Virus record (IMG/VR): IMGVR_UViG_3300013104_000034
Span: 1 to 43,949 of that record
Source: a virus
Direction: 5' to 3' (one strand)
Length of the DNA stretch: 43,949 nucleotides
This document shows positions 3,254 through 41,335 of the stretch, in pieces. A model generated the notes under the pieces. The model searched no databases and was not told the origin of the DNA. It worked only from the letters and a program-made list of their open reading frames with translations. The translations under genes were made by a program, and so were the position numbers. Every line of letters starts with the position of its first letter. Positions within the stretch are counted from its first letter, which is position 1.

Positions 3254-3303
3254 TATAGTCTCCTCAGTGGTGTGGTGGTTGACCGCCAGCTGGTGGCTGG
3301 CGG
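3254..3303 (-). promoter_or_regulatory. Structured early leader (hairpin + CACCACA + Shine-Dalgarno)
   Basis: Read on the minus strand, an 8-bp hairpin (CCGCCAGC / GCTGGCGG, loop CACCA, 3283-3303) is followed by ACCACCACACCAC and then GAGGAGA 6 bases before the MazG-like ATG. The same order of elements is found before genes starting at 5211, 5931, 35982, 36485 and 41286. See findings. Confidence 0.6.
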
Positions 3304-3462
3304 ATCGGCTGGGGATTACTGGGGAAGGCACTGTATAAACGCTCTAGAAACCCCAATTTCCCGGTTGTTTCGGTGGTTATTCCCCGTTTGCAATTGACGC
3401 GCCGCCCGTAGGGTGTGCTTATTGCCATTGTGGTGCCAGCTAATCTTTCACTGGAGCACCAC

Positions 3463-3594
3463 ATGAAAAACTTCTTGAAAATCAAACACGGTCAGACCGA
3501 AGGCGAGGCCGGCGGAACTCTAGCCGTTGTTCTCCTAGCCGTGATGTTCTTGGCGGCTATATTCGCACCGATCATCGCGTGGGCGGTTAGGTGA
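3463..3594 (+). CDS. 43-residue single-pass membrane peptide
   Basis: A basic, polar N-terminus (MKNFLKIKHGQ) is followed by a Gly/Ala-rich hydrophobic helix (about residues 17-41, LAVVLLAVMFLAAIF...), so it is a likely inner-membrane microprotein. GGAG lies 7 bases before the ATG. A TTGACG at about 3395, with a loosely spaced CTTATT, could be its promoter. It is divergent from the MazG operon. No family is recognised; a holin-like or toxin-like role is possible but unsupported. Confidence 0.5.
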   Translation: MKNFLKIKHGQTEGEAGGTLAVVLLAVMFLAAIFAPIIAWAVR

Positions 3595-3639
3595 GTTCGA
3601 CTGTCTTGCCGCTACAGCTTGGACTAGTGAAAATGCCAT
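3535..3639 (-). CDS. Possible 34-residue ORF antisense to the membrane peptide
   Basis: AAGGAGA lies 5 bases before an ATG at 3639 and is itself preceded by ACCACCCCAC, resembling the early-leader motif of this prophage. The frame encodes 34 mostly polar, Arg-rich residues and then stops, lying antisense to the plus-strand membrane peptide. The start signals are good but the peptide is not recognisable, so it may be a relic leader whose gene has been lost. Confidence 0.25.
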   Translation of the reverse strand: MAFSLVQAVAARQSNSPNRPRDDRCEYSRQEHHG

Positions 3640-3715
3640 CGTTTCTCCTTAGTGGGGTGGTCGTATCTAGGATCAGAATTGGTTCAGTTTTCGTCAGAAC
3701 GTCGGGGATAGCGCG

Positions 3716-3964
3716 ATGAAGATCACACAATCAAAGTTCAACGGTTCGCTCGCCGAGATCGTCGTGGAAGATGAACCTGGCCGCTCAGGCCTCATCGTTC
3801 AGTTCGAAGCATCCGGTCCTTTACAGAGCGACGCACAAACCGACCCTGTCGTCTTTGCAACTGACCTATCCATCGAGGAAATTAGCAAACAGTGCAAAAT
3901 CTCCGACGCAGAGGCTCGAGCGATGGTGGTCACATTTTTACTCAAGGACGGCTTGGTGGCCTAA
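3716..3964 (+). CDS. Small acidic protein of unknown function
   Basis: 82 residues. The N-terminal half looks like beta strands; the C-terminal part (DLSIEEISKQCKISDAEA) resembles a short helix-turn-helix or helical hairpin. GGGGA lies 8 bases before the ATG. It converges on the metallophosphoesterase gene, and the two stop codons overlap by 4 bases. No family is recognised. Confidence 0.6.
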   Translation: MKITQSKFNGSLAEIVVEDEPGRSGLIVQFEASGPLQSDAQTDPVVFATDLSIEEISKQCKISDAEARAMVVTFLLKDGLVA

Positions 3965-5211
3965 GCCACCGCCCTCGCTGGCTCATTGTCATTCGCAGCC
4001 GAATACCGACCAGCGACCATCTCCGGCCGCAACGTGGCGCGAGCCACTTCGCCATATCGACGCGAATATGTGATGACTTTGGCAGATCGTCCGGAGAGCC
4101 AGCCGCCACCAGCGGCGTATGCGTCAGGTGCGGCAAGCGTCTCGTGGCGTTCGACATACATCAGCGCCGACTTGCGACCTTCATCACTGTGCAGGTGACC
4201 CACATGAGCGAATGCGTACTTTGATTGACCGAACATCTCTCGGAACATGCCTGCGAGCGTAGCGTCGACCTGGGCCACGCCGCGCTTATGGCCGTGGTGA
4301 TAGAAGAGCGCAGTGTCCCCCCACTTGTAGGCATAATACAGCATCGGGCTGGTATCGACCGACACGCGCGGCTCGTTCTCATAAATCGTCGCAAGAAGCT
4401 CTCGAACCCAAACAGATGAGGCAGGATCGTGATTGCCAGACGCCATCACGACGTGAACGTGCTTGTGCTTCTGTAGCAGCATGTCGATGACACGGCGCAA
4501 CGTGCGGATAACGACACGAACCACCTTATGCAGTCGGGAATCAGCGTCAAGGACATGCTTGTGCGCAGGCGTGACGCTTTCAAGGGCGTCATGGTGCAGT
4601 AGATCGCCGAGTTGCGCCAGAACGGCGGTGTGCGCCTGCGGAGCGCCTGCGACAGCGGCCGCGAACCAATCCAGCAGCAACTGCTCGGCCAGCCTTAGAT
4701 CGTAGTCAGCGCCCGTTTCTTCGCGATGGGCCAGCATACCGAAATGGCTGTCTGTCACAACGAACTGGTTGAGCAAATCTTCTTCTACGTGCTGCGGCGC
4801 GGGCATGATGGTGATACGGGGAAGATCTTCCTTGAGGCCGTCGACCATCGCGCGGAAAGCAGCGAGCTGGCCTTCTTTCTCCACCGCCGTCTTCTGCCAC
4901 TGCTGGATAACTCGCCCGTCAGCATCGACGAGAGCAGATACGCCTTTGACGACGTGACCGGTAGGCACCTCAAAGCGATCACCGCGCTCCGGCGTCTGTT
5001 GGATGAACGTGCCGCTCGGGGTGTTGCTGATGCGGCTGATGCGAAACCCCGGCAGCACAGGTTCGGTGCCAAGCAGGCCAGCCTCGGCTGCGTGCTTCAG
5101 GCTTTCAGAAAGAGCGGACTTCTTGATGCCGAGCGCTTCGGCCGCCTTAACAAGCGTGCCGTACTCACGGTAGGCGTCGGCTCTTCGGCGTAGTTCTTCG
5201 GTGGGTAGCAT
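3961..5211 (-). CDS. Calcineurin-like metallophosphoesterase with N-terminal HTH
   Basis: 416 residues. The five metallophosphoesterase blocks are present in order: D154-x-H156 (VVTDSHFG), GDLLHHD (D203), SGNHD (N260-H261-D262), HHGHKRG (H308) and GHLHSD (G338-H339). This two-metal nuclease or phosphatase fold is related to SbcD/Mre11 and is common in phage early regions. The first 45 residues (LVKAAEALGIKKSALSESLK) form a helix-turn-helix, suggesting DNA tethering. The protein ends in ANDNEPARAVA, with the recurrent ANDN tract near its C-terminus. A DNA-processing role during replication or recombination is inferred, not proven. GAGGAGA lies 4 bases before the ATG, within a structured leader. 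Confidence 0.88.
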   Translation of the reverse strand: MLPTEELRRRADAYREYGTLVKAAEALGIKKSALSESLKHAAEAGLLGTEPVLPGFRISRISNTPSGTFIQQTPERGDRFEVPTGHVVKGVSALVDADGRVIQQWQKTAVEKEGQLAAFRAMVDGLKEDLPRITIMPAPQHVEEDLLNQFVVTDSHFGMLAHREETGADYDLRLAEQLLLDWFAAAVAGAPQAHTAVLAQLGDLLHHDALESVTPAHKHVLDADSRLHKVVRVVIRTLRRVIDMLLQKHKHVHVVMASGNHDPASSVWVRELLATIYENEPRVSVDTSPMLYYAYKWGDTALFYHHGHKRGVAQVDATLAGMFREMFGQSKYAFAHVGHLHSDEGRKSALMYVERHETLAAPDAYAAGGGWLSGRSAKVITYSRRYGEVARATLRPEMVAGRYSAANDNEPARAVA

Positions 5212-5257
5212 GCGCTCTCCTCGATGTGGTGGTTGAGGCCGCTTGGTGGGCGGCCTT
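5212..5257 (-). promoter_or_regulatory. Structured early leader before the metallophosphoesterase gene
   Basis: Minus strand: an 8-bp hairpin (one G-T pair) with the 7-nt loop CCACCAA at 5235-5257, then AACCACCACATC, then GAGGAGA and the ATG. It has the same architecture as the leader at 3254-3303. Confidence 0.6.
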
Positions 5258-5265
5258 GGTGATAT

Positions 5266-5931
5266 TTATTTGCGCGCCAGCAACTCACAAACAGCAGTCG
5301 AAGGCACGACAAAGCCGAAGCCAACCAGCGAGCCTGAGAAGCCAATAGGCGCCGCCATGACGCCGACGGTGATGCCGATCAGGTCGCCGTTGTCTGTAAA
5401 GATAGGCCCGCCGGATTGCCCCATTACAGTCGTGATGTCGGTCACATAGACAGCGTTCCACGGACCTGCTTTGCGAGGCTCGCCAGCAATCTTGCCGTAT
5501 GCAGCCACGAATTCGATACCGAGAGGATTGCCGTAAGCGGTGATTGGATCGCCAGCCTTCGCAGAACCGCAGGACAAGTGCGCCGTACCTAATCCAGCCG
5601 ACGACGTGCGCAGCAGTGCGATGTCGTTGGCCTTATTGACCCAAAGGACATCCGCCTTGCGGAACTCGGCGCCCTTCGCCTTCAACTGAACTTCTTGTGC
5701 ATCGCCGACGACGTGCGCAGCAGTGATGATAAAGCCGTCGCCTATGTGGACGCCGGAGCCGTGGCCGTCGTTGACTTGGATTTTGACGGTGGCGCTCTCG
5801 GTCGTCGGCAGAGTGGGCGGAGGAAGGAGCGCGTAAGCGGCCGCAGAGGTAGCGGCGACGATAACGAATAATGCGACGAGGAATGCTGTCGGCGAACGCC
5901 GCAATGAGGCACGCAGGAACCGTCTGAGCAT
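5266..5931 (-). CDS. Membrane-anchored trypsin-like (S1 family) serine protease
   Basis: 221 residues. An N-terminal Arg-rich segment precedes a single hydrophobic helix (about 15-36) and then a chymotrypsin-fold domain with the full catalytic triad: TAAHVV (H73), NDIALL (D103) and GQSGGP (S173). It has no PDZ domain, so it is a minimal HtrA-like protease anchored in the inner membrane with its active site in the periplasm. It is unusual as phage cargo in an early unit. Possible roles are processing of envelope proteins or exclusion of other phages; neither can be read from sequence. AGAGGGG precedes the start. Confidence 0.85.
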   Translation of the reverse strand: MLRRFLRASLRRSPTAFLVALFVIVAATSAAAYALLPPPTLPTTESATVKIQVNDGHGSGVHIGDGFIITAAHVVGDAQEVQLKAKGAEFRKADVLWVNKANDIALLRTSSAGLGTAHLSCGSAKAGDPITAYGNPLGIEFVAAYGKIAGEPRKAGPWNAVYVTDITTVMGQSGGPIFTDNGDLIGITVGVMAAPIGFSGSLVGFGFVVPSTAVCELLARK

Positions 5932-5988
5932 GATATCCCCTCTTTCTGGCGTCTGGCGCCAATGTGGTGGTCTCGGTTGGTTGCCGAG
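5932..5988 (-). promoter_or_regulatory. Structured early leader before the S1 protease gene
   Basis: Minus strand: a 5-bp hairpin CTCGG/CCGAG with the 7-nt loop CAACCAA (5972-5988), then ACCACCACATT, a second small hairpin (TGGCG/CGCCA) and an AGAGGGGA ribosome-binding site. It is the longest variant of the leader family. Confidence 0.55.
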
Positions 5989-6031
5989 CGGCTGGTGAGG
6001 CCGATATTCACGCTATACGCTTTTTACAAAT

Positions 6032-6060
6032 TTGTCAAGAATCAACGAGTAATGTATGGG
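6032..6060 (+). promoter_or_regulatory. Candidate sigma-70-type promoter of the acyltransferase gene
   Basis: TTGTCA (6032-6037) and TATGGG (6055-6060) are separated by exactly 17 bases in an AT-rich stretch about 100 bp before the GTG start. The spacing is ideal; the -10 match is moderate. Confidence 0.4.
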
Positions 6061-6159
6061 TATGCGACTTGCTGTTTATGTACAAAGATACCGCACGAAA
6101 AATTCCAGCCGAGTGTTTCATGTGCTAACAAGCAATGCCCACTAGCGAAAGGAAGCTCG

Positions 6160-7299
6160 GTGAAGACGGAATACTGTACTCGGACGCAGTCAAGCGATTC
6201 AGCACCAAAGCCAAAAGTTGGAGAGATTCGTGCGCTGACTGGCCTGCGAGGCGTTGCGGCTACAGATGTTGCGCTGCTCCATATCGGTGGCGTTGCACCG
6301 TTAAGTTTATTTGCATTCCACAATCAGGCCGTTGATATCTTCTTTTGTTTAAGCGGTTTCACGCTATCTCTCGCCTATCGTATAGAATCGGCTCGGCATT
6401 TGAATTGGAAAGCTTTTTTTGCTGCTAGGTTTGCGAGGGTCTATCCGCTTTGTGCAATAGCACTGATTTTATGTACAATTTATAGCGCTTTTTGGAACTT
6501 AAACAATTTTTCGGCCTATGGAAAAATAGAATTCATTGGTGACTTCGTGCGCCAACTGCTCATGATAAATGCCCTTCCTGTAATCGGTTCCAGCGTTCAC
6601 TGGATAGCGCCGATGTGGTCGCTCTCAATTGAGGCATTTTGCTATGTTGCAATTTTCCCCATCTTGTTCGCCATAACAATGCCAGCTGGATCTTTGAGCC
6701 CAAAATGGCGTTTGGCAATTATTCTTATGCTCAGCGGTTTCACCTACGCATTCTATGTACTTTTCATGAATCCGGGGGTGTATTCACATCTTGTTCCGCC
6801 GGCAACAGGGCCCTGGATACATTGGGTCGCGATAGTGCGGGGAATCTGCATGTTCACCTGTGGCTGGCTGGTTTATACCCTCTATACCAATGCACCCGCA
6901 ATTTTGAATGGCGCAATCGAGATGGTTGACATTGTAGTGTTTTTCGCTGCGCTTATTCTAGTTGGCCGGATGTTTGGTGTGGTTGATGTCGCCCTCATCG
7001 TACCCTTAGCGCCCTTTTTAGTTCTTGGCATTTCCAGCGGAGATTCCCTGACATCCCGAATTCTATCAGGTAAAACACTGCATTATCTCGGGAAAATTTC
7101 CTATTCTCTCTACATCCTGCATTGGCCTGTAAAAGAATTATACGACTTGCTGGGTGGCAGCTCACAGCCAGAAATAAGGCTCGCCGCAATTTTTATCGCA
7201 TCGTTGGCCTTATCTGGCTTATCATATTCATATTTAGAAACACCAATGCGAATATTTTTGTTTAAAAAAATCACGCAAAAACTTAGCAAGCATGGCTAA
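6160..7299 (+). CDS. Membrane-bound O-acyltransferase (acyltransferase 3 / OafA-OatA type)
   Basis: 379 residues. It opens with the family block EIRALTGLRGVAATDVALLH, then NQAVDIFFCLSGFTLSLAYR, followed by about ten hydrophobic helices and the late block YLGKISYSLYILHWPV; all are hallmarks of acyltransferase 3 enzymes, which acetylate O-antigen, capsule or other surface glycans in the inner membrane. The frame is open 198 bases further upstream, but GTG at 6160 is preferred: AAAGGAAG lies just before it and the conserved domain begins shortly after. The gene is clearly more AT-rich than its neighbours, a sign of recent acquisition. It is likely a lysogenic-conversion gene changing the host surface; the target glycan is unknown. 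Confidence 0.88.
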   Translation: MKTEYCTRTQSSDSAPKPKVGEIRALTGLRGVAATDVALLHIGGVAPLSLFAFHNQAVDIFFCLSGFTLSLAYRIESARHLNWKAFFAARFARVYPLCAIALILCTIYSAFWNLNNFSAYGKIEFIGDFVRQLLMINALPVIGSSVHWIAPMWSLSIEAFCYVAIFPILFAITMPAGSLSPKWRLAIILMLSGFTYAFYVLFMNPGVYSHLVPPATGPWIHWVAIVRGICMFTCGWLVYTLYTNAPAILNGAIEMVDIVVFFAALILVGRMFGVVDVALIVPLAPFLVLGISSGDSLTSRILSGKTLHYLGKISYSLYILHWPVKELYDLLGGSSQPEIRLAAIFIASLALSGLSYSYLETPMRIFLFKKITQKLSKHG

Positions 7300-7407
7300 G
7301 CCAAGCACGTTTCCAACTACTCGCCGCCCTGTATAGTCCGATGCAAGACTCCGCTTGACTCCTCTGCAGAATGAGAACATTTGTAGAACAAACAAGGAGT
7401 ACGCGAC

Positions 7408-7647
7408 ATGGCCGATGAAGAAAAAATCATCGTAGTGCAATTTAAAAAAGGCCGCGCAGGCATTGTGCCTGGCGAAATGCGGCCCGCCTCAAACGCGGCA
7501 TCCGCGGAAAAAATGGCCGGTGCAATGGCATCGCGCCACATCGGCGTGGCGGCGTACGCTGTCACTGTGGATGATGAAAGTGGCGCTATGGCCAACCCGC
7601 GTCTGCTGGTGTCGCATGGGCAGATTTCGGACTTGATGCCAGACTGA
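7408..7647 (+). CDS. Small conserved phage protein
   Basis: 79 residues with no catalytic motif, not assigned to a family. The pattern EEKIIVVQFKKG, followed by an Ala/Met-rich helix (AASAEKMAGAMASRH) and a short beta segment, suggests a compact alpha/beta fold. AAGGAG lies 8 bases before the ATG, and a CTTGAC box lies about 50 bp upstream. A strong terminator follows directly, so this may be a single-gene unit. Function is unknown. Confidence 0.65.
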   Translation: MADEEKIIVVQFKKGRAGIVPGEMRPASNAASAEKMAGAMASRHIGVAAYAVTVDDESGAMANPRLLVSHGQISDLMPD

Positions 7648-7653
7648 TTTACC

Positions 7654-7676
7654 GGCGCGGGGGCGCGCGCCTTTTT
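7654..7676 (+). terminator. Rho-independent terminator
   Basis: The stem GGCGCG/CGCGCC with a 6-nt loop is followed by TTTTT, directly after the 7408-7647 gene. It lies before the ATG at 7678 of the next frame, which argues against that ATG being a real start. Confidence 0.75.
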
Positions 7677-7722
7677 CATGACAAGGGAAGTTTTTGCGGC
7701 TCTGAAGAAGGAGAATGAGAAC

Positions 7723-7923
7723 GTGCGCCCAGAAAGACGAGAACCCGAAGCCGATCCGGTGGACCACATCATTGCATGGCACGATGGAGATAGCCGAGCC
7801 GCTATTGAGACGCTCATGGAGGACATTCTGCATTTGAGGATGCAGTTAGCCTTGGCAACGGCTGCAATGGGCCGAGGCTTTACCAGGGGGTGGATGCCGG
7901 AAGCAGATCGAGATGCCAGGTGA
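7723..7923 (+). CDS. Small helical protein of unknown function
   Basis: 66 residues if started at the GTG at 7723, which has AAGGAG 9 bases upstream. A longer frame from the ATG at 7678 lacks a ribosome-binding site and sits on the terminator. The core DPVDHIIAWHDGDSRAAIETLMEDILHLRMQLALA is a strongly helical, leucine-containing segment. It overlaps the next gene by 11 bases. Confidence 0.55.
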   Translation: MRPERREPEADPVDHIIAWHDGDSRAAIETLMEDILHLRMQLALATAAMGRGFTRGWMPEADRDAR

Positions 7924-8389
7924 AGGAGCGTATTTGCTGTCGGATTACGGCGGCGAGCCTGTCGGAGTTTTATGCGAGGATTGCGAGCTTCTCAAATTCA
8001 TCTGCTCGGGAGAGCTTATGATCGAATATGGCGACCAATCGATGCCATCCCTGCTCAACAAGATAGCGAAAGACATAATCAAATGCCCCCGTCCCTTCGA
8101 AGGATTTTCGGATCGATGCAGACTTAGATACCACGCCCGCGCACGCAGCCTCATCGAAACATTGAAACAAGCGCCGCCGACGGCCGTTAAGGTCAAGGAA
8201 ATACGGAACTGGGAGATTGTCGTTGCCAAGTGCAACTACTGCGGTCACGTTTCGAATATCCAGCATTGGCAACTGAACCGCGTGGCTAAAACCGATACCA
8301 CCGTCGACGATATTGCCAAGCGGCTAAAGTGCAAAAGGTGCAACACCAAGGGTGACGTCAAAATCACCATAGCCAAGATGCCGAGGTGA
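7913..8389 (+). CDS. Protein with two tandem zinc-ribbon-like segments
   Basis: 158 residues. C21-x2-C24 with later cysteines at 58 and 69, and C107-x2-C110 with C140-x2-C143, flank two similar halves. IAKDIIKC in the first half mirrors IAKRLKC in the second, suggesting an internal duplication with the first copy degenerating. Short zinc ribbons of this type are frequent in alphaproteobacterial prophages. Nucleic-acid or protein binding is likely; the exact role is unknown. The gene is followed directly by the SRAP gene with a 2-base gap. Confidence 0.65.
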   Translation: MPGEGAYLLSDYGGEPVGVLCEDCELLKFICSGELMIEYGDQSMPSLLNKIAKDIIKCPRPFEGFSDRCRLRYHARARSLIETLKQAPPTAVKVKEIRNWEIVVAKCNYCGHVSNIQHWQLNRVAKTDTTVDDIAKRLKCKRCNTKGDVKITIAKMPR

Positions 8390-8391
8390 GC

Positions 8392-9054
8392 ATGTGTAAT
8401 TTGTACCGTGTAAAGACCAATCAGGAATCTATCCGCGACATCGTGGGCACCATGCAGGAGCGGCTTAACCTGGAGCCTGATATTGAGGTTTACCCTGACA
8501 GGCCGGCGCCCGTGGTCCGCAATGGTGAGAGCGGGCGGGAACTGGTCGGCCTGACATGGGGCATGCCCTCGCCGCAATTCGTCACGCAAGGCAAGCCTGA
8601 CACCGGCGTGACCAACATCCGCAACGTCACTTCACCGCACTGGCGGGGCTGGCTTCGACCAGAGAACCGCTGCGTCGTTCCGTGGACGACCTTTTGCGAA
8701 TGGGAAGATACCAAACCCCGGAAGACGAAGCGCTGGTTTGCGATCAACGAGGAAACACCCCTCGCCTTCTTCGCCGGCATCTGGACGGACTGGCATGGCG
8801 TTCGGGGATCGATGAAGAACCCGCGCGAAGGCGATCATCACCTTTTTGCGTTCCTGACGACCGACCCGAACGGCATTGTTAAACCGATACACCCTAAGGC
8901 CATGCCGGTAATCCTGACAAATAAAGATGAAATTGAAACATGGCTTACGGCGCCGTGGGAGGAAGCGAAAGTACTTCAACGGCCATTGCCTGATGACGGT
9001 CTTGTGCTGCTGCCTGTTGAGGAAGAAAGGCCACAACAGGATCTATTTGGATAG
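8392..9054 (+). CDS. SOS-response-associated peptidase family protein (SRAP; YedK/HMCES type)
   Basis: 220 residues. The ATG at 8392 is chosen over an in-frame GTG two codons upstream because it places cysteine at position 2 (MCNLYR). That is the catalytic residue, exposed by Met removal, which forms a thiazolidine crosslink with abasic sites. Other family landmarks are present: NIRNVTSPHW, RCVVPWTTFCEWE (Glu) and HPKAMPVIL (His). The family shields abasic sites in single-stranded DNA. In a phage this could protect replicating DNA or handle base-excision damage. It lies in a plus-strand unit of small phage genes. Confidence 0.92.
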   Translation: MCNLYRVKTNQESIRDIVGTMQERLNLEPDIEVYPDRPAPVVRNGESGRELVGLTWGMPSPQFVTQGKPDTGVTNIRNVTSPHWRGWLRPENRCVVPWTTFCEWEDTKPRKTKRWFAINEETPLAFFAGIWTDWHGVRGSMKNPREGDHHLFAFLTTDPNGIVKPIHPKAMPVILTNKDEIETWLTAPWEEAKVLQRPLPDDGLVLLPVEEERPQQDLFG

Positions 9055-9063
9055 GAGGCAAGC

Positions 9064-9477
9064 ATGCGCATTCGTCCATACCTGCTCGAAAAACATGGCG
9101 TATACGCAAAATTCCCGCTGGATGAAGGTGACTTCGTCGGCGCAACGAAAGCGAGCCACGACGACCTTGATCCGCGTATCCTAGATGAAGTTGACCGCGA
9201 TTCTGACCTCACAGCCTTCACCGGTTACGTTGCCACAGAACTCCTTGCTGACGATGACGACATACCGACCGGTGCAAGAACGGAGATTTTGTTCAGCCAG
9301 CGCAAGGGGATCGCTGCCATTCTGTATGACCACCCCAATATTTCCGACGCGTTCATCGAATGGGTCTTTTGTTCCTCCGCTGAGGAGGCGTTAGACAAAT
9401 GGAAAAAGAAAGTTCGCTGGCCGTTGATTGAGACATCTAACGAGCCGATAGACATCACTGGAAATACCATAACATGA
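9064..9477 (+). CDS. Phage protein of unknown function
   Basis: 137 residues, acidic (patches such as ADDDDIP). GGAGG lies 6 bases before the ATG, directly after the SRAP gene, and the stop overlaps the next start (ATGA). The second half carries AFIEWVFCSSAEEALDKWKKKVRWP, an amphipathic helical region. No family is recognised. Confidence 0.65.
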   Translation: MRIRPYLLEKHGVYAKFPLDEGDFVGATKASHDDLDPRILDEVDRDSDLTAFTGYVATELLADDDDIPTGARTEILFSQRKGIAAILYDHPNISDAFIEWVFCSSAEEALDKWKKKVRWPLIETSNEPIDITGNTIT

Positions 9478-9635
9478 GCGACCAATCCAAAAATAGCGAC
9501 GGCATTCACGAAAATCACTATTGCGAGCATCCTGGCTGCAAGAAATGGGGCGGCTTCGGGTATTCTCGATCGAAGGCCGAGAAATCCACCTGGCATTGCT
9601 GGGCGCATTATCCGCATAAGGAGCCACTACAATGA
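9474..9635 (+). CDS. 53-residue Cys/His-rich small protein
   Basis: The frame encodes C-x4-C (CEHPGC), a KKWGGFGYSRSKA segment and W-H-C-W-x-H-Y-P-H, a compact zinc-binding-like pattern. Similar small proteins with KWGGFGYSRSKAE are common in rhizobial genomes and phages. The start overlaps the previous stop (ATGA) and its stop overlaps the next start, so it is embedded in a coupled operon. Function is unknown. Confidence 0.7.
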   Translation: MSDQSKNSDGIHENHYCEHPGCKKWGGFGYSRSKAEKSTWHCWAHYPHKEPLQ

Positions 9636-9847
9636 TAACCCGCATTTCCCGCCAGAAGAACGCGGAACAACGGTTGGCAATGGCCCTTCGCCAGTTAAAC
9701 GATGCCATCAAAGAAGTTCACAAGACCGGCCTCGACGTCGATATCAGCACCCTGACGATGCATACATCCCGTGGCCCAATGACGCAGGTAAATCTAAAGA
9801 CGTTCAGAGCTGAAGGTGCGCCGCCGGTGCTGCGTGTGGTGGAATAA
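9632..9847 (+). CDS. Small phage protein of unknown function
   Basis: 71 residues. A basic helical first half (SRQKNAEQRLAMALRQLNDA) is followed by a short beta region. AAGGAG lies 8 bases before the ATG, inside the previous gene. It is the last gene of the coupled run 8392-9847; a terminator follows about 105 bases later. Confidence 0.65.
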   Translation: MITRISRQKNAEQRLAMALRQLNDAIKEVHKTGLDVDISTLTMHTSRGPMTQVNLKTFRAEGAPPVLRVVE

Positions 9848-10882: not shown

Positions 10883-10885
10883 AAA

Positions 10886-33548: not shown

Positions 33549-33560
33549 TCACAACCTCGA

Positions 33561-34744: not shown

Positions 34745-34775
34745 CACCGCAGCGGATCGGCATCCGAAGCAATCA

Positions 34776-34821: not shown

Positions 34822-34859
34822 ACGATCACCATGCAAGCGGAGGAGAACGCGCATGGGAT

Positions 34860-34936: not shown

Positions 34937-35020
34937 TGATAGTTACCCAAAGCTCAGAGGCTGCAACGAGTGCAGCATGGCGATGGGCCCGACGCATAGC
35001 GCTCGGAGTGCAGTGGGGTT

Positions 35021-35035
35021 CGCAACTTAGTTGCG
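35021..35035. repeat. 15-bp palindrome
   Basis: CGCAACT-T-AGTTGCG is a perfect 7+1+7 inverted repeat in the 140-base gap between the tRNA and the 35077 gene. It could be an operator; no T tract follows, so it is unlikely to be a terminator. Confidence 0.45.
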
Positions 35036-35076
35036 CCCCCTTCACCCTACTCTCTCCGAGATCGCGGAAAGGGACG

Positions 35077-35982
35077 CTATGATGATGCCTTTCGCAGCGC
35101 AGCCATGAGATTATCATTGGCTGCAATCAATCGTCGCTTGCCTTGGCGTTCAGCCTGCTTGCCTTGATGCCCAGCCTTCGCCCCGAGTTCCGCCATGTTC
35201 TTGGCAGACCTCGCAGCTTCCAGAGTTGCTCGGTCGCTATCCTTCAAATCATCAACTGCATCGAACCATTCTTTGCGATCGGCCATTGCAGTCACGATGT
35301 CCTGCCACATCATCGATCCGCCACCAGCACACGTTGTCTTCTGCATGCCTAAGAAGCTATCGGCAATCTTGGCGGAGCCGCATGGCAGCCCGTCCGGGCA
35401 GCGGGTGAAAGTAATTTTGCTCATGTCGGTGTTGGCGTAAGCCCTGGCCAACTGCGCCTTGGCTTCGTCGTGGCTTAGATTGATGCGAATACCCTTGTGC
35501 CTGCGCCCCGTGAAGTATCTGGGCTTCTTGGTGTCCAGCATCTCGGCGAAGTAGTTGTTGCTCTCTATCACCTCACGTGGGTTTTCGTCACCGCCAAGGG
35601 CAACGTCAACCTTGTCCCGTGAACCAAGCATCGCACCTGCTGGCATCCTTGCCGCATATTCCTCAACGCCTCCGTCGATCTTAAGCCTGAACGCTCTTTC
35701 TGTCTGGCTCCCGTCACTGAAACGAAGTCGGCCGATACGAATGGTCTGCCCTTCTTCGTTTTTTTCCAATTCACCTGAAGCAACGTTCTTCATGATCTCG
35801 GCGACGGATGGCGTTACCAGCCTCTTGCGGTCGTGCTTTAGGTCGTCGATTTCATCCAGGTCATTGTCGTTTGATGGGACGACAGACCAATTGGTCTGTA
35901 GCGGCTCGGGCTGATGATCGGGTTCGGTGGCAAAGCGGCGCACCGCCGCCAACTGCTCTGCAAGTGATCCATGTCTGGCCAT
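35077..35982 (-). CDS. Early phage protein of unknown function
   Basis: 301 residues, not recognised. N-terminal 60 residues look disordered and carry SNDND (37-41). The centre has FSDGSQTERAFRLKIDGGVE, GAMLGSRDKVDVALGGDENP and a region with four cysteines or so (TRCPDGLPCGSAKI, KTTCAGGGSMMW). The C-terminus is Lys/Arg-rich and ends LIAANDNLMAALRKASS. Two copies of the NDN tract in one protein is notable. GGGGAGA lies 6 bases before the ATG in a structured leader. Confidence 0.7.
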   Translation of the reverse strand: MARHGSLAEQLAAVRRFATEPDHQPEPLQTNWSVVPSNDNDLDEIDDLKHDRKRLVTPSVAEIMKNVASGELEKNEEGQTIRIGRLRFSDGSQTERAFRLKIDGGVEEYAARMPAGAMLGSRDKVDVALGGDENPREVIESNNYFAEMLDTKKPRYFTGRRHKGIRINLSHDEAKAQLARAYANTDMSKITFTRCPDGLPCGSAKIADSFLGMQKTTCAGGGSMMWQDIVTAMADRKEWFDAVDDLKDSDRATLEAARSAKNMAELGAKAGHQGKQAERQGKRRLIAANDNLMAALRKASS

Positions 35983-36019
35983 ATCGTCTCCCCTGTGGTG
36001 CTAGCGCTTGGTAGGCGCC
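35983..36019 (-). promoter_or_regulatory. Structured early leader before the 35982 gene
   Basis: Minus strand: 5-bp stem (one G-T) with the 7-nt loop CTACCAA (36003-36019), then AGCACCACA and GGGGAGA. It occupies the short gap after the VRR-NUC stop codon. Confidence 0.55.
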
Positions 36020-36020
36020 G

Positions 36021-36485
36021 TTACTGCTGCTTGGTGTTGTCGTTATCAGCCAGCCATTCCTTGACCAACTCCACCGCCTTGCTGGCAGCTTCTGCTGTGG
36101 ACGTGAACCGTACCACCTCCACTGGATGCCCGAGCCGAGCCAGCGACGCATGCCGCTCAACCTGCGCCGGAGAAAGCCGGCCTTTACCAACCTTGTTCTC
36201 GATCATCCGCAGCTTGCCGCCCTTGAGGTAGATCCGCAGGTCAGCTTCGCCAGGCGTCATGCCAGTCGCGATAGCGTCAGCCTGGGCACGTGGACCGCGC
36301 TTGGCACTGTTCATGTCGCCAGCCAACAGAAACTGCCTGCCGTACTCCGGCAGCGACCGCAGGGCGCGGACCTGAGCCGCCTGCCCTTCGCTTTCCTTGA
36401 TGGGTGCGTCTGCGAAAGTGACTGTGCCCTTTGGCGAAGTACGGATGATGACGCGCATGCCATTGATGCGGGTGGTTTGCTGCAT
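36021..36485 (-). CDS. VRR-NUC domain nuclease
   Basis: 154 residues. The nuclease core is PGEADLRIYLKGGKLRMIEN then KVGKGRLSPAQVERHASLAR: Asp (ADLRI), then E-x-K (IENK) and the Gln of SPAQ, the PD-(D/E)xK set of VRR-NUC proteins, some of which resolve branched DNA. The start at 36485 follows GAGGAGG; a longer frame of 14 codons is less likely. It ends with DNDNTKQQ. A recombination or replication-intermediate role is likely. Confidence 0.85.
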   Translation of the reverse strand: MQQTTRINGMRVIIRTSPKGTVTFADAPIKESEGQAAQVRALRSLPEYGRQFLLAGDMNSAKRGPRAQADAIATGMTPGEADLRIYLKGGKLRMIENKVGKGRLSPAQVERHASLARLGHPVEVVRFTSTAEAASKAVELVKEWLADNDNTKQQ

Positions 36486-36522
36486 GCTGGCCTCCTCGTG
36501 TGGTGTTGTCGTGGTGGCGACA
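36486..36522 (-). promoter_or_regulatory. Structured early leader before the VRR-NUC gene
   Basis: Minus strand: 5-bp stem TGTCG/CGACA with loop CCACCA (36507-36522), then ACACCACAC and GAGGAGG 6 bases before the ATG. Confidence 0.6.
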
Positions 36523-36585
36523 CACATACTTTCCGAGAGAGGAGCGAAAACGGGTAGTCAATTTGTGAAATATTTTTTGGCCAAA

Positions 36586-36618
36586 AGAAAAGACCGGCTG
36601 AACGCCGGTCGTTTTTTT
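36586..36618. terminator. Terminator after the DUF3606-like gene (usable on both strands)
   Basis: Stem GACCGGC/GCCGGTC with loop TGAAC. The plus strand has GTTTTTTT after it and the minus strand CTTTTCTTTT. It directly follows the TAA of the minus-strand gene at 36617. Confidence 0.8.
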
Positions 36619-36778
36619 AGTGCTCGTCACCGCGATGCGGACATCGCTTCATAAGCTTCTTGATCGTCCGTCGATCTCCGCCGAACCGATCCATGACCTC
36701 GACGGCTTTTGGCAGGCTGACCGAATATTCCTGTTGCAGTTGCTCAACGGTGTATGGCTGAGTTTCATTGTCTGGCAT
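36617..36778 (-). CDS. 53-residue DUF3606-like helical protein (paralogue of 34583-34744)
   Basis: The ATG at 36778 has GGAGG 7 bases before it, and the frame extends 156 bases upstream without a good start. The core YTVEQLQQEYSVSLPKAVEV aligns position by position with the gene at 34583-34744, including the G-x-D-R turn. Two such paralogues in one prophage suggest a small DNA- or protein-binding family. The 318 bases upstream (36779-37096) hold a possible control region described separately. Confidence 0.72.
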   Translation of the reverse strand: MPDNETQPYTVEQLQQEYSVSLPKAVEVMDRFGGDRRTIKKLMKRCPHRGDEH

Positions 36779-36921
36779 GGCGCCCTCCTTCTGACCCGCA
36801 AATGCGACCACCCTGATTCGAGTTCCATTCAAAAGGCAGGTTGCACCCGGACCGCCCTTCTGCCCGCCGCACGTTGCCCAGTTAAAATCATCTTGAGAAC
36901 CGTGCGCGCGGCACACCGCCC

Positions 36922-37056
36922 TGCACGGTTGCACGTGTAGGGGTATATATAAATATATACCCTACTAAACGTGCACCAACCGGGCAGCGCTGTGCGGGTG
37001 TCTCCGCCCGTATGTGCACAGTTAGTGCACGGATAAAAAATGCGCTATCCGGGCAG
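36922..37056. promoter_or_regulatory. Repeat-rich control or origin region with AT-rich palindrome
   Basis: Between divergent genes. A perfect 10-bp inverted repeat GGGTATATAT-AA-ATATATACCC lies at 36941-36962, flanked by CACG/CGTG arms. TGCAC occurs five times (36922, 36930, 36972, 37015, 37026) and CCGGGCAG twice (36980-36987, 37049-37056). AT-rich centre plus short repeats fits an operator cluster or replication origin. The whole gap 36779-37096 otherwise has no gene. Confidence 0.5.
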
Positions 37057-37096
37057 TATTAGAAGTTGTATGTCGGAGCAAACGGGGTTGTACTAG

Positions 37097-38101
37097 ATGA
37101 CATACGATGAACTTGTATCGGGCGGCGAAGCGGCGATCGCGTCTCTGATTGGCAGGCAAGAATCTCTTCAACTTGAATTTAAAGCAAATGATGATCGCGA
37201 CCCCATTTTTGTCGATGGGGCAATCACGAAATCAGGCAAGAAGATGCTAGCGAAAGAAATCTCAGCTTTTGCGAACTCAGCAGGTGGATTGATTGTCCTC
37301 GGAGTAGATTGCAGGCCGGTAGATAAGGTGGACCAAGCAGTAAAACTCACCCCAATTTTACGCCTTTCCAGGGCCGAAACTACGGTGAGAGACGCAGCCT
37401 CGGAACTTCTTCAGCCGCGCCATGATGGAATAAGGGTTGCTTCCATACGATCGGAGGAAGTAGCTGACGCCGGGTACATCATTATTGACGTCCCGCGATC
37501 CGAACGCCGGCCGCACCGCTCAGAAGCCACTGACCAAAAGCAGTATTTCAAACGGTCCGGGGGGAGCGCTTTTGCGATGGAGCATTACGACATCGAAGAC
37601 GCTTTCAATCGCGCGTCTTCGCCCTCATTGATACTGGAAGTCTCATATTCGGCTGGAATGCAGGTTGGAACACAAGAACAACACTATAAACTTGATATCG
37701 CACTTGAAAATACAAGCGACGTCACCGCCAAGATGATCAGCATGCAAATTTGGAATCGACACGGCGCCGTATTTGGAGACGATAGGCATGCCCAAGTATC
37801 TGCCAAGCAGACCTTCTACAAAGGTCGATACCACTTCGCCGGCCCAATGGACTTCGCGCTTCACCCTGGTGAAAAACGGCTCTTTCACGCCTTCACATTT
37901 GTTGCAAGAACGACAATTGACGGAGGCGTGGTCTGTGGAAGGTATGATCTTGAACCTGGATCAATCCATTTCAACTATTCAATATCAGCCGAGAACATGC
38001 GTATGAAATCCGGCAGGTACGAGCTCAATGACTCTGAGATGTATAACTTTGCTGCTGTATTCGGTGCTGCACAAACAAGAAAAGAGCGATTCACACCATG
38101 A
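37097..38101 (+). CDS. AlbA_2 (Schlafen-type) ATP-binding protein
   Basis: 334 residues. Residues 10-165 match the AlbA_2 domain: RQESLQLEFKANDDRDP, then GKKMLAKEISAFANSAGGLI and VLGVDCRP, and AGYIIIDVPRSERRPHR with KQYFKRSGGSAFAMEHYDIE (the loop contacting nucleotide and the acidic residues of the fold). Schlafen-type AlbA_2 proteins include nucleases acting on tRNA/RNA and defence components. Residues 180-334 are a beta-rich domain that is not recognised (IALENTSDVTAKMISMQIWN, DGGVVCGRYDLEPGSIHFNY). The gene is comparatively AT-rich and transcribed alone, with its own terminator. An exclusion or defence role is plausible. Confidence 0.78.
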   Translation: MTYDELVSGGEAAIASLIGRQESLQLEFKANDDRDPIFVDGAITKSGKKMLAKEISAFANSAGGLIVLGVDCRPVDKVDQAVKLTPILRLSRAETTVRDAASELLQPRHDGIRVASIRSEEVADAGYIIIDVPRSERRPHRSEATDQKQYFKRSGGSAFAMEHYDIEDAFNRASSPSLILEVSYSAGMQVGTQEQHYKLDIALENTSDVTAKMISMQIWNRHGAVFGDDRHAQVSAKQTFYKGRYHFAGPMDFALHPGEKRLFHAFTFVARTTIDGGVVCGRYDLEPGSIHFNYSISAENMRMKSGRYELNDSEMYNFAAVFGAAQTRKERFTP

Positions 38102-38106
38102 CAAAA

Positions 38107-38139
38107 AAGGCCGGCGCATTTCCGCACCAGCCTTCTTTT
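38107..38139 (+). terminator. Terminator of the AlbA_2 gene
   Basis: Imperfect hairpin (AAGGC/GCCTT outer stem, inner GG/CC and GC/GC pairs) followed by CTTTT, right after the stop codon. Confidence 0.65.
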
Positions 38140-38241
38140 GCTTCTCTGCGCCGCCAGTACATCCGTGGTCGACGATAAAGCCGCTGCGCTAACGCGCTGC
38201 CATGACCTATCTAACTGCCCGGCGCGCTTAAGGTTCCAGCA

Positions 38242-38445
38242 TTACCAACCCTGACGACCGTACCAGTCGTCGATGTCTTTCTTGGTCTGGTCCTTCGCAT
38301 AGCCATAGCGCTCCTGGATTTTGCCTTCCAGCTGCTCGCGCTTGCCATTGATGACATCAAGGTCGTCGTCGGTGAGTTTGCCCCACTGCTCCTTAACCTT
38401 GCCCTTCATCTGCTTCCAGTTACCTTCTACGCGGTTCCAATCCAT
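38242..38445 (-). CDS. CsbD-family protein
   Basis: 67 residues. MDWNRVEGNWKQMKGKVKEQ, WGKLTDDDLDVINGKREQLE and GKIQERYGYAKDQTKKDIDD is the complete CsbD (YjbJ) pattern, a stress-induced protein in bacteria with a helical fold. Start at 38445 was chosen because GAGGAGA lies 7 bases upstream and the domain starts there; a longer frame of 27 codons has none. A chromosomal-type stress gene in the prophage is likely cargo. Confidence 0.92.
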   Translation of the reverse strand: MDWNRVEGNWKQMKGKVKEQWGKLTDDDLDVINGKREQLEGKIQERYGYAKDQTKKDIDDWYGRQGW

Positions 38446-38476
38446 TGATATGTCTCCTCTTTGTTGTGTGAGGAGA
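38446..38476 (-). promoter_or_regulatory. Hairpin that would mask the CsbD ribosome-binding site
   Basis: Minus strand: TCTCCTC (38476-38470), loop of 10, GAGGAGA (38459-38453). The 3' arm is exactly the Shine-Dalgarno of the CsbD gene, so folding would hide it. A switch opened by heat, a factor or transcription speed is possible. Confidence 0.5.
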
Positions 38477-38550
38477 AAACGCAAGGTGGCGCAAATGGTT
38501 CCCCGATAAGTCAGAACGGCGATCAAGGCCGCCGCAGACGAGACAAAAAA

Positions 38551-38587
38551 AGCCGTCGGCCTTGCAGGGCCGACGGCTCAATTTTTT
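38551..38587. terminator. Strong bidirectional terminator
   Basis: An 11-bp perfect stem AGCCGTCGGCC/GGCCGACGGCT with loop TTGCAG has CAATTTTTT after it on the plus strand and TTTTTTT on the minus strand. It separates the CsbD side from the regulator unit. Confidence 0.85.
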
Positions 38588-38633
38588 ACCACCAAAATGG
38601 TGGTTTTTGCTTGCGTTACCACCAAAATGGTGG
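38586..38633. promoter_or_regulatory. Twin palindromic operators upstream of the XRE-type regulator
   Basis: TTACCACCAAAATGGTGG occurs twice (38586-38603 and 38616-38633), start-to-start exactly 30 bp. Each holds the palindrome CCACC-AAAAT-GGTGG. The spacing equals about three turns of DNA, so two dimers would bind on the same face. It lies about 190 bp before the regulator gene. Confidence 0.65.
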
Positions 38634-38686
38634 CATAAAGAAATCACCGAAGCAAACCCGCTTCGGCAACCCGACTGGAGGATACC

Positions 38687-38755
38687 ATGAGCATCAAGCT
38701 CACCGTCCAAGTCCGGTTCGGCAAGTGGAGAGTAACGATCTCCATCGGCCGTTAA
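38687..38755 (+). CDS. 22-residue peptide upstream of the regulator
   Basis: GGAGG lies 6 bases before the ATG. It encodes MSIKLTVQVRFGKWRVTISI then GR, a basic beta-hairpin-like peptide. It lies between the operators and the regulator gene. It may be a leader peptide or a true microprotein; too short for family assignment. Confidence 0.4.
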   Translation: MSIKLTVQVRFGKWRVTISIGR

Positions 38756-38821
38756 ACTGGGGGCCGGAGGGGCTGCAACCTCTCCGGTTCCCCAAGATAA
38801 CAAAAGGGAGTGTGGAATTCA

Positions 38822-39064
38822 ATGTTTGACCTGAAGACCCTGCGCAACGGCGCAGCCTTGACCCAAGCAGAATTTGCGGAGGCCATGGGCGTTCCTTTGC
38901 GTACCTACGAGAACCTGGAGAGTGGATCGACGCCAACTCGCCCGGTTCACTTGAACGCGGCCTACTGGGGGCTGATTAAATTGGCCCATAAGTCTGGCCG
39001 TGGTCTAGGCTTTCTCCCCTTTGAGATCGGCGAAATAGTTCGCAAGGTGGCCAGTAGCTCTTAA
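38822..39064 (+). CDS. Cro/XRE-type helix-turn-helix regulator
   Basis: 80 residues from the ATG at 38822 (AAGGGAG 11 bases upstream). FDLKTLRNGAALTQAEFAEA, MGVPLRTYENLESGSTPTRP is a classic lambda-repressor-like HTH (helices around 16-38). Short, with no dimerisation or peptidase domain, so Cro-like or an early regulator. A strong hairpin (38758-38796) lies in its leader, and twin palindromes upstream are candidate binding sites. Its stop overlaps the convergent prim-pol stop. Confidence 0.85.
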   Translation: MFDLKTLRNGAALTQAEFAEAMGVPLRTYENLESGSTPTRPVHLNAAYWGLIKLAHKSGRGLGFLPFEIGEIVRKVASSS

Positions 39065-41286
39065 GCCGCGCGTACAAACACCGCCAGTTCCCGCCTGACC
39101 GGGTCGCGCTCCTCCCGCTCGACAAGCGCACCTTCACGCATCAGCGCCGTCACAAGGCTGGAGGCGCGCTTGCGCTGGACGTTGTCGTCCAGATCCAGCC
39201 CCACAGCGTACGCTACAGCGCTCCCGACCCAGTTCTTGGCCTTCGGTGACTTCTTGTAGTCGGACGCGCTCACGGCCGCCAGAATCGACGCACGCTGCTC
39301 TTCCGTCAGATCTCCCGCGACCTCCTCCGCGCTCGGCCAATGCCATTCCGTCACCACCGGCGCGAAGTCCTGCGGCTGAGCAAGGCCGGTCCCGTTTCCC
39401 AGCGGCGTCGAGACCAGATGGCGCCATTCTGCCTTGTGTGAGAGCGGCGTCAGGTTGGACTTGCCATAGGTGGTGTAGAAGTATCCAAAACGATCTTCCT
39501 TGTTGATACCCGCCTCACCTGCTTGCTCTTCCGACATGCGGTTTAGGACGCGCACCGAGCGCGCCGCGCCGATCAGCGACACCGCACCGCGCGCATCTTC
39601 GACGGTAGCCTCTCGGTCGGCGACCTTGCGCAGATGGTGCACGATGTCGATCGAACAATTGGTGTAGTCGGCGATCTGCGCCCACAGCTTCGCCACCTTG
39701 TCGATCGCGCCGTTGTCATTTTCGTTCACGCCGTGCGTGGACACGAATGGGTCCACGATCATGACATCGATGCCATATCGCTCGATCTGCTCGACCACCG
39801 CCTCAACAATCGGCTGCTGGATGCGCACGCCAGCCTTCTTGTCTTCGATGGCGACGACCAGTTCCTGTTCTCGGCCGCTATCCAGGAAGAGATGTCCCTC
39901 AAGGTCGGCAGGCTTCAGCTTATAGTGGATGCAAGCCGCCATGATGCGCCGCTCCATTTCGTCGCGCGGGTCTTCGGCATTGAATATCCACGTGCGCAAG
40001 CGCTTGGGTGGCTTGATTCCGAGCAGAGCCCTGCCCGACACCATAGCAAGGCCCTCAGCGATGCTGGCCGACGTCTTACCAAGGCCGCCCGGCGATACCG
40101 TAACAGAGACGTACTTGCGGATGAAATGCGAGCCGTAGGCGAACTCACGACGAGGCAGTGTCTTGGGGTCGATCCACTTGAATGCCGTGGCGACGATCGG
40201 TGATTGTGGCACGTTGTCGTTGGCGGGCTCGATGTCGCCGTTCGGTGATATGGCTTCCTGCTCGGGAATATCCGCGCCGTTTTGCGGCACTTCTTCCTGT
40301 ACGGTAAGGTCTGCATCGATCCGTGCCGCCTGCTCGCGCAGCCTGCCCTTCTCTAGCCCACGCTGGATCATGCGCGTGATGTCCACAAGACGCGTGTTAT
40401 CGTGCGCAGGGAAGTCCGGCTCCGGGATGTGGCGCGGGTTCTGTATCCCAGCCTTAAGGCCGTTCTCGATCGTCTTGCAGCAGCGCGACCAGTCCCTGCC
40501 CCATCCACGCGCAACGTCCTGCAGCAGTGCGCGTGCCTCGGCCTCGCCAAGTGCACCGGCGCCTACGATAGTGCCGATCGAGAATGCAGCGTCATTCAGT
40601 GCGTTGTTGCGCGTGCCTATAGGCGCACCGGCAAGGTCTTCCAGTTCGCGGTCGACGGCCGCATCGACATAGGCGTTGTTGGTGGCGGCCGACAGGCTGT
40701 ACTGCGTGTGAGTGGGCGCCGACTTCGGCAGCAGCAGGTCGAGCAACCACGCCGGCGCGTCCGCGATCTCGCGCGTTTCTGTTTTCCACTTGTAGGATCG
40801 GCCATTAGCCATCGTGCTGCCAGCGGCAAGCACGTAACCGCCTTCGGACCTGATATCCACGCCTGCGCCAAGAGCGCCACGGTTGCGCGTGCCCACGACG
40901 TACTTGAAGTAGATATGCAGCCCGCCGTTCGGGCTCGTCACGCGTGCCGTGTCGGGGAGCTGCCCGTGCTCGGCTTCCATCTCAGCCAGCCAGTCGAAGC
41001 CGTTGGCACCGCCCGGCTTGTTGTCGATGTCTAGCGCGAAGAGGCCGGTCTTCTCGCCAGTCGGCAGGCCGACAGCCGCATCTGGCCAGTCCGACCACCA
41101 TCTCTCGATGATGCGAGGAAAGCGTGTTGCACCCTTGAAGCCATTGGGGGTCAAAGGCGTCTTCTCGCCAAGCGTGATGATCTCGCCGGTGGCTGGGTCG
41201 ACGTGCTCTTCGGCGTGAGAACGGCAAGGAAATACCGGCCAGCCTTGGACGACGTAGTGTTGCGCTAGTTCAAGAGGCGTTTGCAA
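39061..41286 (-). CDS. Bifunctional primase-polymerase / helicase-type replication protein
   Basis: 741 residues. N-terminal prim-pol domain: LAQHYVVQGWPVFPCRSHAE, GLPTGEKTGLFALDIDNKPG (catalytic D-x-D, about 86 and 88) and SPNGGLHIYFKYV. C-terminal AAA_25/RepA-like ATPase: Walker A SPGGLGKTSAS (about 398-408) and Walker B DVMIVDPFVSTHG. A linker holds ANDN (355-358). The start is a TTG at 41286, chosen because GAGGAGA lies 6 bases before it in a structured leader; an ATG-initiated frame 132 bases upstream runs into the broken Mrr gene. It primes and unwinds phage DNA. Confidence 0.88.
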   Translation of the reverse strand: MQTPLELAQHYVVQGWPVFPCRSHAEEHVDPATGEIITLGEKTPLTPNGFKGATRFPRIIERWWSDWPDAAVGLPTGEKTGLFALDIDNKPGGANGFDWLAEMEAEHGQLPDTARVTSPNGGLHIYFKYVVGTRNRGALGAGVDIRSEGGYVLAAGSTMANGRSYKWKTETREIADAPAWLLDLLLPKSAPTHTQYSLSAATNNAYVDAAVDRELEDLAGAPIGTRNNALNDAAFSIGTIVGAGALGEAEARALLQDVARGWGRDWSRCCKTIENGLKAGIQNPRHIPEPDFPAHDNTRLVDITRMIQRGLEKGRLREQAARIDADLTVQEEVPQNGADIPEQEAISPNGDIEPANDNVPQSPIVATAFKWIDPKTLPRREFAYGSHFIRKYVSVTVSPGGLGKTSASIAEGLAMVSGRALLGIKPPKRLRTWIFNAEDPRDEMERRIMAACIHYKLKPADLEGHLFLDSGREQELVVAIEDKKAGVRIQQPIVEAVVEQIERYGIDVMIVDPFVSTHGVNENDNGAIDKVAKLWAQIADYTNCSIDIVHHLRKVADREATVEDARGAVSLIGAARSVRVLNRMSEEQAGEAGINKEDRFGYFYTTYGKSNLTPLSHKAEWRHLVSTPLGNGTGLAQPQDFAPVVTEWHWPSAEEVAGDLTEEQRASILAAVSASDYKKSPKAKNWVGSAVAYAVGLDLDDNVQRKRASSLVTALMREGALVEREERDPVRRELAVFVRAA

Positions 41287-41335
41287 TGTGGGTCTCCTCT
41301 GTGGTGATGAGGCGGCGCCGATTGGTGGTCGACGC
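41287..41335 (-). promoter_or_regulatory. Structured early leader before the prim-pol gene
   Basis: Minus strand: 7-bp stem (one G-U) with the 7-nt loop CCACCAA (41315-41335), then ATCACCACA, GAGGAGA and a TTG start. The leader settles the choice of start codon. Confidence 0.62.

Follow-up and report, generated by a model that had tools for sequence, protein, structure and literature searches.

We examined a virus record of 43,949 bases (IMG/VR record IMGVR_UViG_3300013104_000034; "the window" is this whole stretch) and found that six of its genes are preceded by copies of one leader element. In each copy, a hairpin of 5 to 8 bp with an ACCA-bearing loop is followed, 1 to 8 bases past the stem, by a CACCACA tract and then by a strong Shine-Dalgarno sequence (SD). 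The element thus lies within the initiation region of several genes, as is the case for phage translational operators generally. We consider it probable, if not by much, that all six copies represent a single translational operator, specific to phages and read, via ACC(A) words, by a phage-encoded factor. All six leaders lie on the minus strand, exactly where a preliminary description of the window had placed them, and consist of the following parts.

3283..3303, minus strand: leader 1 hairpin, 8-bp stem, loop CACCA; pyrophosphatase gene phrog_5658 (MazG-like in the preliminary description), start 3253
3271..3277, minus strand: leader 1 CACCACA tract; SD GAGGAGA at 3265-3259
5236..5256, minus strand: leader 2 hairpin, 7 bp, loop CCACCAA; DNA repair exonuclease (metallophosphoesterase-type) gene, phrog_704, start 5211
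5225..5231, minus strand: leader 2 CACCACA tract; SD GAGGAGA at 5222-5216
5972..5988, minus strand: leader 3 hairpin, 5 bp, loop CAACCAA; trypsin-like protease gene (PF13365), start 5931
5963..5969, minus strand: leader 3 CACCACA tract; then a second small hairpin and a G-rich SD
36003..36019, minus strand: leader 4 hairpin, 5 bp including one G-U, loop CTACCAA; phrog_36072 gene of unknown function, start 35982
35994..36000, minus strand: leader 4 CACCACA tract; then SD GGGGAGA
36507..36522, minus strand: leader 5 hairpin, 5 bp, loop CCACCA, not the minimum-free-energy fold; VRR-NUC-like nuclease gene, start 36485
36499..36505, minus strand: leader 5 CACCACA tract; then SD GAGGAG
41315..41335, minus strand: leader 6 hairpin, 7 bp including one G-U, loop CCACCAA; prim-pol gene (PF09250), TTG start 41286
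41300..41306, minus strand: leader 6 CACCACA tract; SD GAGGAGA at 41299-41293

The product of the gene behind leader 5 has weak nuclease matches and is 70% identical to a protein of phage 16-3 that is annotated as VRR-NUC. Judging from their content, these genes would belong to an early class.

We scanned the window for an ACCA-loop hairpin followed within 22 nucleotides (nt) by a CACCAC or ACCACA tract. The scan returned six places, all on the minus strand and all identical with the named leaders (hairpin 5′ ends at 3303, 5256, 5988, 36019, 36522, and 41335), versus a mean of 0.225 (maximum, 2) in 40 first-order Markov resamples of the window. A stricter descriptor, which additionally requires an SD and a start codon, gave six matches versus 0.15 in 20 resamples. 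Five of these are named leaders; leader 3 (gene 5931) is missed because of its spacing, and the sixth match (plus strand, 31883) is unrelated to the leaders. The covariance-model search that the preliminary description had proposed gave the same answer: with our model, R1, the top six window matches were the six leaders (E values of 6e-10, 1e-8, 3e-7, 5e-6, 0.003, and 0.012; next match, 0.09). R1 was built from 32 seeds, two of which are from the window (genes 41286 and 5211) and some others of which are orthologues of window leaders. Over all sequences searched, it gave 181 matches in 99 sources at an E value of ≤0.1, seeds included. We conclude that the family of six leaders exists in the window.

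The preliminary description also held that the fold, rather than the stem sequence, is conserved, and this is well supported: stem sequences vary widely while pairing is retained. When places were picked by sequence only, 137 of 175 had a stem of at least 4 bp closing a 7-nt loop (many of the picks come from related phages), compared to 32 of 2,055 among the remaining CNACCAA places and 16 of 525 among slid controls; several of the 38 picks below the cutoff pair by eye with a larger or shifted loop. The leaders of the sliding-clamp gene in 27 phages, which were not chosen by sequence, include 18 with an ACC-loop hairpin, and these use 17 different stems. For one of the 18 (G226), the script scored an upstream hairpin, and the leader's own ACC-loop hairpin is visible. 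We also collected 114 leaders that have an ACCAC tract, an SD, and a start codon from nine phages and prophages (552 kb; a few of the 114 are chance matches). An ACC-loop hairpin of −5 kcal/mol or lower was present in 56 of them, versus 6 of 114 with the letters shuffled; a first script had counted 55 because CTCACCA-type loops were overlooked. The seed alignment (32 rows) has double changes in all six pairs, its rows having been preselected for pairing. The consensus of the 7-base loop is C-N-ACCAA: among 180 loops, the first base is C in 174 and the last is A in 169. The search fixed ACCA but not the loop ends, and ends able to pair were counted as stem. Since the stems differ with pairing kept and the elements lie on the coding strand, we set aside an operator acting at the DNA level.

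The same leaders recur in a family of phages whose hosts are soil bacteria: they are present in phage 16-3 of Sinorhizobium meliloti, in phage RHph_X2_25, and in prophages of Rhizobiales; the nearest of the nine sets to the window is an Agrobacterium pusense prophage (20.7 kb at 85.8% identity). The 114 leaders are distributed as 17, 17, 16, 15, 15, 14, and 11 per genome in seven of the sets; the window fragment has 5 and a Brucella-derived prophage 4. The same rule found one place in 400 kb of host DNA and none in RHph_X2_26, a phage whose prim-pol protein is 50% identical and in which the descriptor also found no leader. The 400 kb of host DNA contained no CACCACA-SD-start leader and no descriptor match, compared to 1 to 11 and 3 to 10, respectively, in the nine element-bearing sets. 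In 16-3 and RHph_X2_25, 28 of 38 R1 matches (E value of ≤5) have an annotated same-strand start no more than 30 nt downstream of their end. We then surveyed 195 virus loci (3.29 Mb) recruited by three window proteins; these loci overlap, so matches are not independent. The descriptor of hairpin, tract, SD, and start matched 243 places (161 distinct sequences), versus 5 in one resample; among distinct descriptor sequences, 5 of 166 were a conserved minus-strand coding match, that is, false positives.

Ten Rhizobiales genomes, picked because of pattern matches, were scored with R1 on the best 150 candidates per genome. At an E value of ≤0.05 there were 45 matches in nine genomes and none in the tenth (G007). 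In six of the ten, all 34 matches were confined to one stretch of ≤65 kb. Four of five matches in G002 and three of four in G003 lay on one contig stretch, and the two in G005 lay on two contigs. The single stretches of the six genomes just named as having all matches in one place code for 16-3 homologues. Among 199 genomes of the order (best 32 candidates each), 4 had a match at an E value of ≤0.001, a single match in three of them. A search by pattern only found, among the matches listed, at least 116 virus loci, of which 84 have two or more 16-3 homologues; the remaining 32 are short pieces of the same phages, members of an integrase-type class described below, or chance-like. The corresponding matches in genome contigs are mostly chance: 11 of the first 80 loci listed match the full descriptor, 8 of these being Rhizobiales. 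The near-absence from host DNA and the clustering of genome matches do not support a general host leader. In the samples examined, the element is found to accompany 16-3-like phages of Rhizobiales.

That the element is shared by unrelated genes, as first proposed for the window, is borne out by its recurrence ahead of diverse families in these phages. The 81 downstream proteins include, among the best 25 of 34 and the best 25 of 105 families, the clamp, a Sak4-like annealing protein, the single-stranded DNA-binding protein, helicases, primase-polymerase, methyltransferases, pyrophosphatase, sigma factors, proteases, and SPFH proteins. Many copies are operon internal. A CA-rich tract and a strong SD are found in nearly all copies, with the tract a few bases 5′ of the SD and a spacing from SD to start of 4 to 6 nt in 204 of 256. 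The element as first described (hairpin, CACCACA, SD) is sound, but it is narrower than what we found, since about half of the leaders have linear ACC words with no scored hairpin; such leaders carry up to eight ACC words in 80 nt. In the leader of 16-3 p075 the order is reversed, with the tract 5′ of the hairpin. For the 16-3 clamp gene p081, the start as annotated (L008:12584) falls inside the leader hairpin, and a start after GAGGAGAC looks better by eye.

The arrangement suggests how such an operator might work. A single-stranded word would be offered twice, as ACCA in the loop of a short hairpin and as linear ACC repeats (CACCACA) directly 5′ of the SD; in leaders that have no hairpin, extra linear ACC words may serve as a substitute. 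A putative phage-encoded RNA-binding factor would recognize these words. With the tract a few bases upstream of a strong, well-spaced SD, anything bound there would run into the 30S subunit. Bound at the 5′ edge of the ribosome footprint, the factor could jointly set translation of genes for replication, recombination, nucleotide metabolism, and regulation. We lean toward repression, a RegA-like shutoff, given SDs of high strength and good spacing that are for the most part unpaired; activation would be our second choice. Room for activation is left by leaders that sequester the SD. These precede the leftward gene, in 16-3 the first gene after the annotated left promoter PL. Of 22 rows, 4 have no fitting leader; among the other 18, an exact anti-SD (CTCCTC) precedes the ACCA stretch and the SD in 14. 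Leaders with the ACCA hairpin enclosed by pairing between the 5′ anti-SD and the SD occur at L450:6084-6160, L463:16915-16990, L008:5540-5625, and L246:10226-10300, and four SD-sequestering leaders fold better than shuffled sequences (z scores of −5.65, −5.76, −3.39, and −2.63). Hence, at least one member of the family appears, from its predicted pairing, to sit in a translation switch.

Several observations weigh against an operator of this kind or against parts of it. Folding energies of the window leaders are unremarkable relative to shuffles (z scores of −2.27, −1.97, −0.92, +1.37, −1.24, and −1.62), the best fold of leader 5 (gene 36485) lacks the ACCA hairpin, and a second small hairpin separates the CACCACA of leader 3 from its SD. 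In the A. pusense prophage, the gene orthologous to 35982 has kept CACCACA and the SD without the hairpin, and, as noted above, about half of the 114 leaders have no scored hairpin. The hairpin is therefore not obligatory. The linear tract also precedes a few late genes, namely, those for the 16-3 major head protein and one Phage_capsid protein. Lastly, in an integrase-type class of leaders (L205, L212, L258, L269, L291, L357, L377, L230, and L249), hairpin, CACCACA, and GAGGAGA are present with no start at SD distance. In L205, L212, L258, and others the unit stands behind a TTGACC-type promoter and a further hairpin lies downstream; the next open reading frame (ORF) looks integrase-like by eye in the two loci read. 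This class suits a stabilizer, or an operator recognized apart from its own SD.

The strongest rival explanation is a passive leader, one that would act without any dedicated factor: its hairpin, its strong SD, and a C/A-rich stretch free of structure would enhance initiation or stabilize the mRNA. The near-constant CA-rich tract and strong SD fit it, several copies lie just behind a TTGACA-type promoter, so that the hairpin would be near the 5′ end, and integrase-type leaders look as a stabilizing SD would. Any loop would serve this purpose, although the loop found is specific (its ends are C and A in the proportions given above); some element-free relatives keep a hairpin in the clamp leader with TTCG or TACG loops. 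With many copies operon internal and the element nearly unused by host genes, we regard a passive leader as unlikely on the whole.

A second rival is a target for a host small RNA (sRNA) or a host RNA-binding protein that recognizes CCACCAA and CACCACA. Some sRNAs, such as GcvB, typically have C/A-rich targets next to SDs, and the company that the element keeps with 16-3-like phages of Rhizobiales would suit a host reader. Against this, RHph_X2_25 and RHph_X2_26 share a host species and the former alone has the element, and 400 kb of host DNA held a single ACCAC-SD-start leader. A host reader thus seems quite improbable to us. Because of the RHph_X2_25 and RHph_X2_26 comparison, a phage-encoded reader is favored over a host reader. 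The preliminary description had allowed for either, or for an sRNA; the phage-encoded protein is the part of that proposal that has gained, and no phage sRNA with exact complements was found in eight phages.

The best candidate for the factor is 16-3 gene p073, whose product is predicted to form a NusG/KOW-like barrel. When all 101 proteins of 16-3 were searched by tblastn, p073 and the clamp p081 alone were present in all seven other element-bearing genomes and absent from RHph_X2_26. In 40 virus records, R1 matches and p073 agreed in 38 (28 with both and 10 with neither; Fisher's exact test, P = 1.4e-7). The clamp is found in 35 of the 40, including 6 of the 11 R1-free records, and within these 35 the R1/p073 table is 28/1/1/5 (P = 1.1e-4). 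Clamp leaders have an ACC-loop hairpin in 18 of 21 phages with p073 and in 0 of 6 without it (P = 2.8e-4). Gene p072 tracks the element almost as well (29 of 40, with some matches weak), and p074 does so less well. The model of p073 contains a small five-stranded barrel at about residues 20 to 60 (predicted local distance difference test [pLDDT] score of about 90; whole model, 69.7, with a predicted template modeling [pTM] score of 0.50). It has weak matches to NusG/KOW and PWWP domains; against solved structures, there was no significant relative by sequence and none at 0.001 by fold (best E value by fold, 3.4e-3). Gene p072 heads the p072-p073-p074 group and has an ACCAC-SD leader in six phages, as would be expected under self-control.

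The case for p073 has its own difficulties. Both p073 and the clamp are missing from the window fragment; record G244 has one weak R1 match without p073, and G224 has p073 without an R1 match. The p073 profile was built from element-bearing phages. The association is confounded by ancestry: the element-free records need two to four state changes on the clamp tree (in which row G209, probably in a wrong frame, has an implausible branch), so few independent events stand behind the counts. Two other candidates were weakened. The p074 family (L007:3607-4749, alignment A4) consists of tandem SH3-like modules and a tail, with a match to the C-terminal domain of the ribosomal stalk protein L7/L12 in 8 of 12 rows; as a specific reader it suffers from the occurrence of the modules in 6 of 11 R1-free records and their absence from G237, G239, and G241, which have R1 matches. 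The leftward gene is weakened because its 16-3 copy looks frameshifted; this first leftward ORF of 16-3 (L008:5340-5560, minus strand) is unannotated. The full proposal, that p073, as a stand-alone barrel like the NusG C-terminal domain or KOW, perhaps with p074, reads ACCA operators and brings ribosomes to or bars them from a dozen or more messages, is a conjecture that we think distinctly unlikely as it stands. If it were true, the p073 regulon would be the translational counterpart of that of a phage sigma factor.

The predicted likeness of p073 to NusG KOW domains, albeit with weak scores, raises a further possibility, a nut-type antitermination site whose hairpin and linear box are read by a NusG-like phage protein. 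Such a site could well look like this element, in which a linear word stands next to a hairpin whose loop is fixed and whose stem is free. The sites of λ nut combine a small hairpin with a conserved loop and a linear box and act on RNA polymerase; they are few per genome and not tied to an SD, whereas here seven of the nine phages have 11 to 17 copies, each a few bases from an SD. We therefore hold a nut-type site to be very improbable. An sRNA complementary to the loop had first been suggested for the window; we give hardly any credence to a phage-encoded sRNA complementary to loop and tract. In eight phages, wherever both exact complements fall within 30 nt of each other, the place seems to be the reverse strand of a leader or of something leader-like, and this search by exact words gave no sRNA candidate.

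Returning to a phage-encoded translational operator, its general kind, with many targets, is known from T4 RegA, and the form with an ACCA hairpin and tract appears to be new. According to PMC3014915, RegA is a small phage RNA-binding protein and a competitor of the ribosome for the initiation regions of about 30 mRNAs; its sites, located at the AUG or immediately 5′ of it, are rich in A+U and without structure. On that account, the two systems are alike in having initiation-region sites shared by many phage mRNAs; unlike those of RegA, the sites here lie 5′ of the SD, are rich in C and A, and often form part of a covarying hairpin. RegA was not among the families listed, no search directed at RegA having been made. 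To our knowledge, many-target phage translational operators are known mainly from T4 RegA, with sites that have no clear motif. CsrA/RsmE recognizes a short word, GGA, that many leaders carry both in a hairpin loop and linearly at the SD. The leaders described here likewise repeat a short word in a loop and a linear site across many leaders, but the loop consensus is C-N-ACCAA rather than a GGA loop, the word is ACCA, the SD itself is not the word, and the element is phage associated. The Mu Com-mom and MS2 coat operators are also hairpins at ribosome-binding sites, each being the single target, of fixed sequence, of a phage protein, whereas here the targets are many and the stems free.

No such leaders were found in the databases or the open literature searched (titles and openings of abstracts; subscription literature was outside the scope). 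Leader or hairpin wording is absent from the main text of PMC10460002 and PMC5492332 and has two irrelevant occurrences in that of PMC12429752. With Rfam 15, the window at gathering score has two tRNAs and the sRNA ar35, with no family matching the leaders, and 17 leader-bearing pieces at an E value of ≤1 gave one tRNA and nothing else.

An easily recognized, covarying operator in 11 to 17 leaders of most genomes compared would make phage-wide translational control directly testable, in the long-studied phage 16-3 and with an element-free relative from the host species of RHph_X2_25. The short list of candidate readers lies in the rightward early region, and rhizobial prophages that lack annotation could be searched for regulons by means of the operator.

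A further word precedes many leaders and has one copy in the window.

6026..6038, minus strand: TTGACAAATTTGT, a promoter- or operator-like word upstream of leader 3, repeated in related phages

There are 33 sites for TTGACAAATTTGT in 8 of 10 phage sets, with 3 to 7 in each set having it other than the window fragment; it is absent from RHph_X2_26 and the Brucella-derived prophage and is unlike the annotated C operators of 16-3. Three other features of the window were seen. The Rfam sRNA ar35 (38100-38229, minus strand) adjoins a CsbD-like gene (by eye; about 38442-38260, minus strand); as a regulator of the leaders, ar35 was rejected, no UUGGUGG being visible by eye in its sequence. The leader of the CsbD-like gene has TCTCCTC facing GAGGAGA. 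At about 38590-38640, two palindromes, ACCACCA-TTT-TGGTGGT, lie upstream of a plus-strand ORF that looks helix-turn-helix-like by eye, and they may be an operator.

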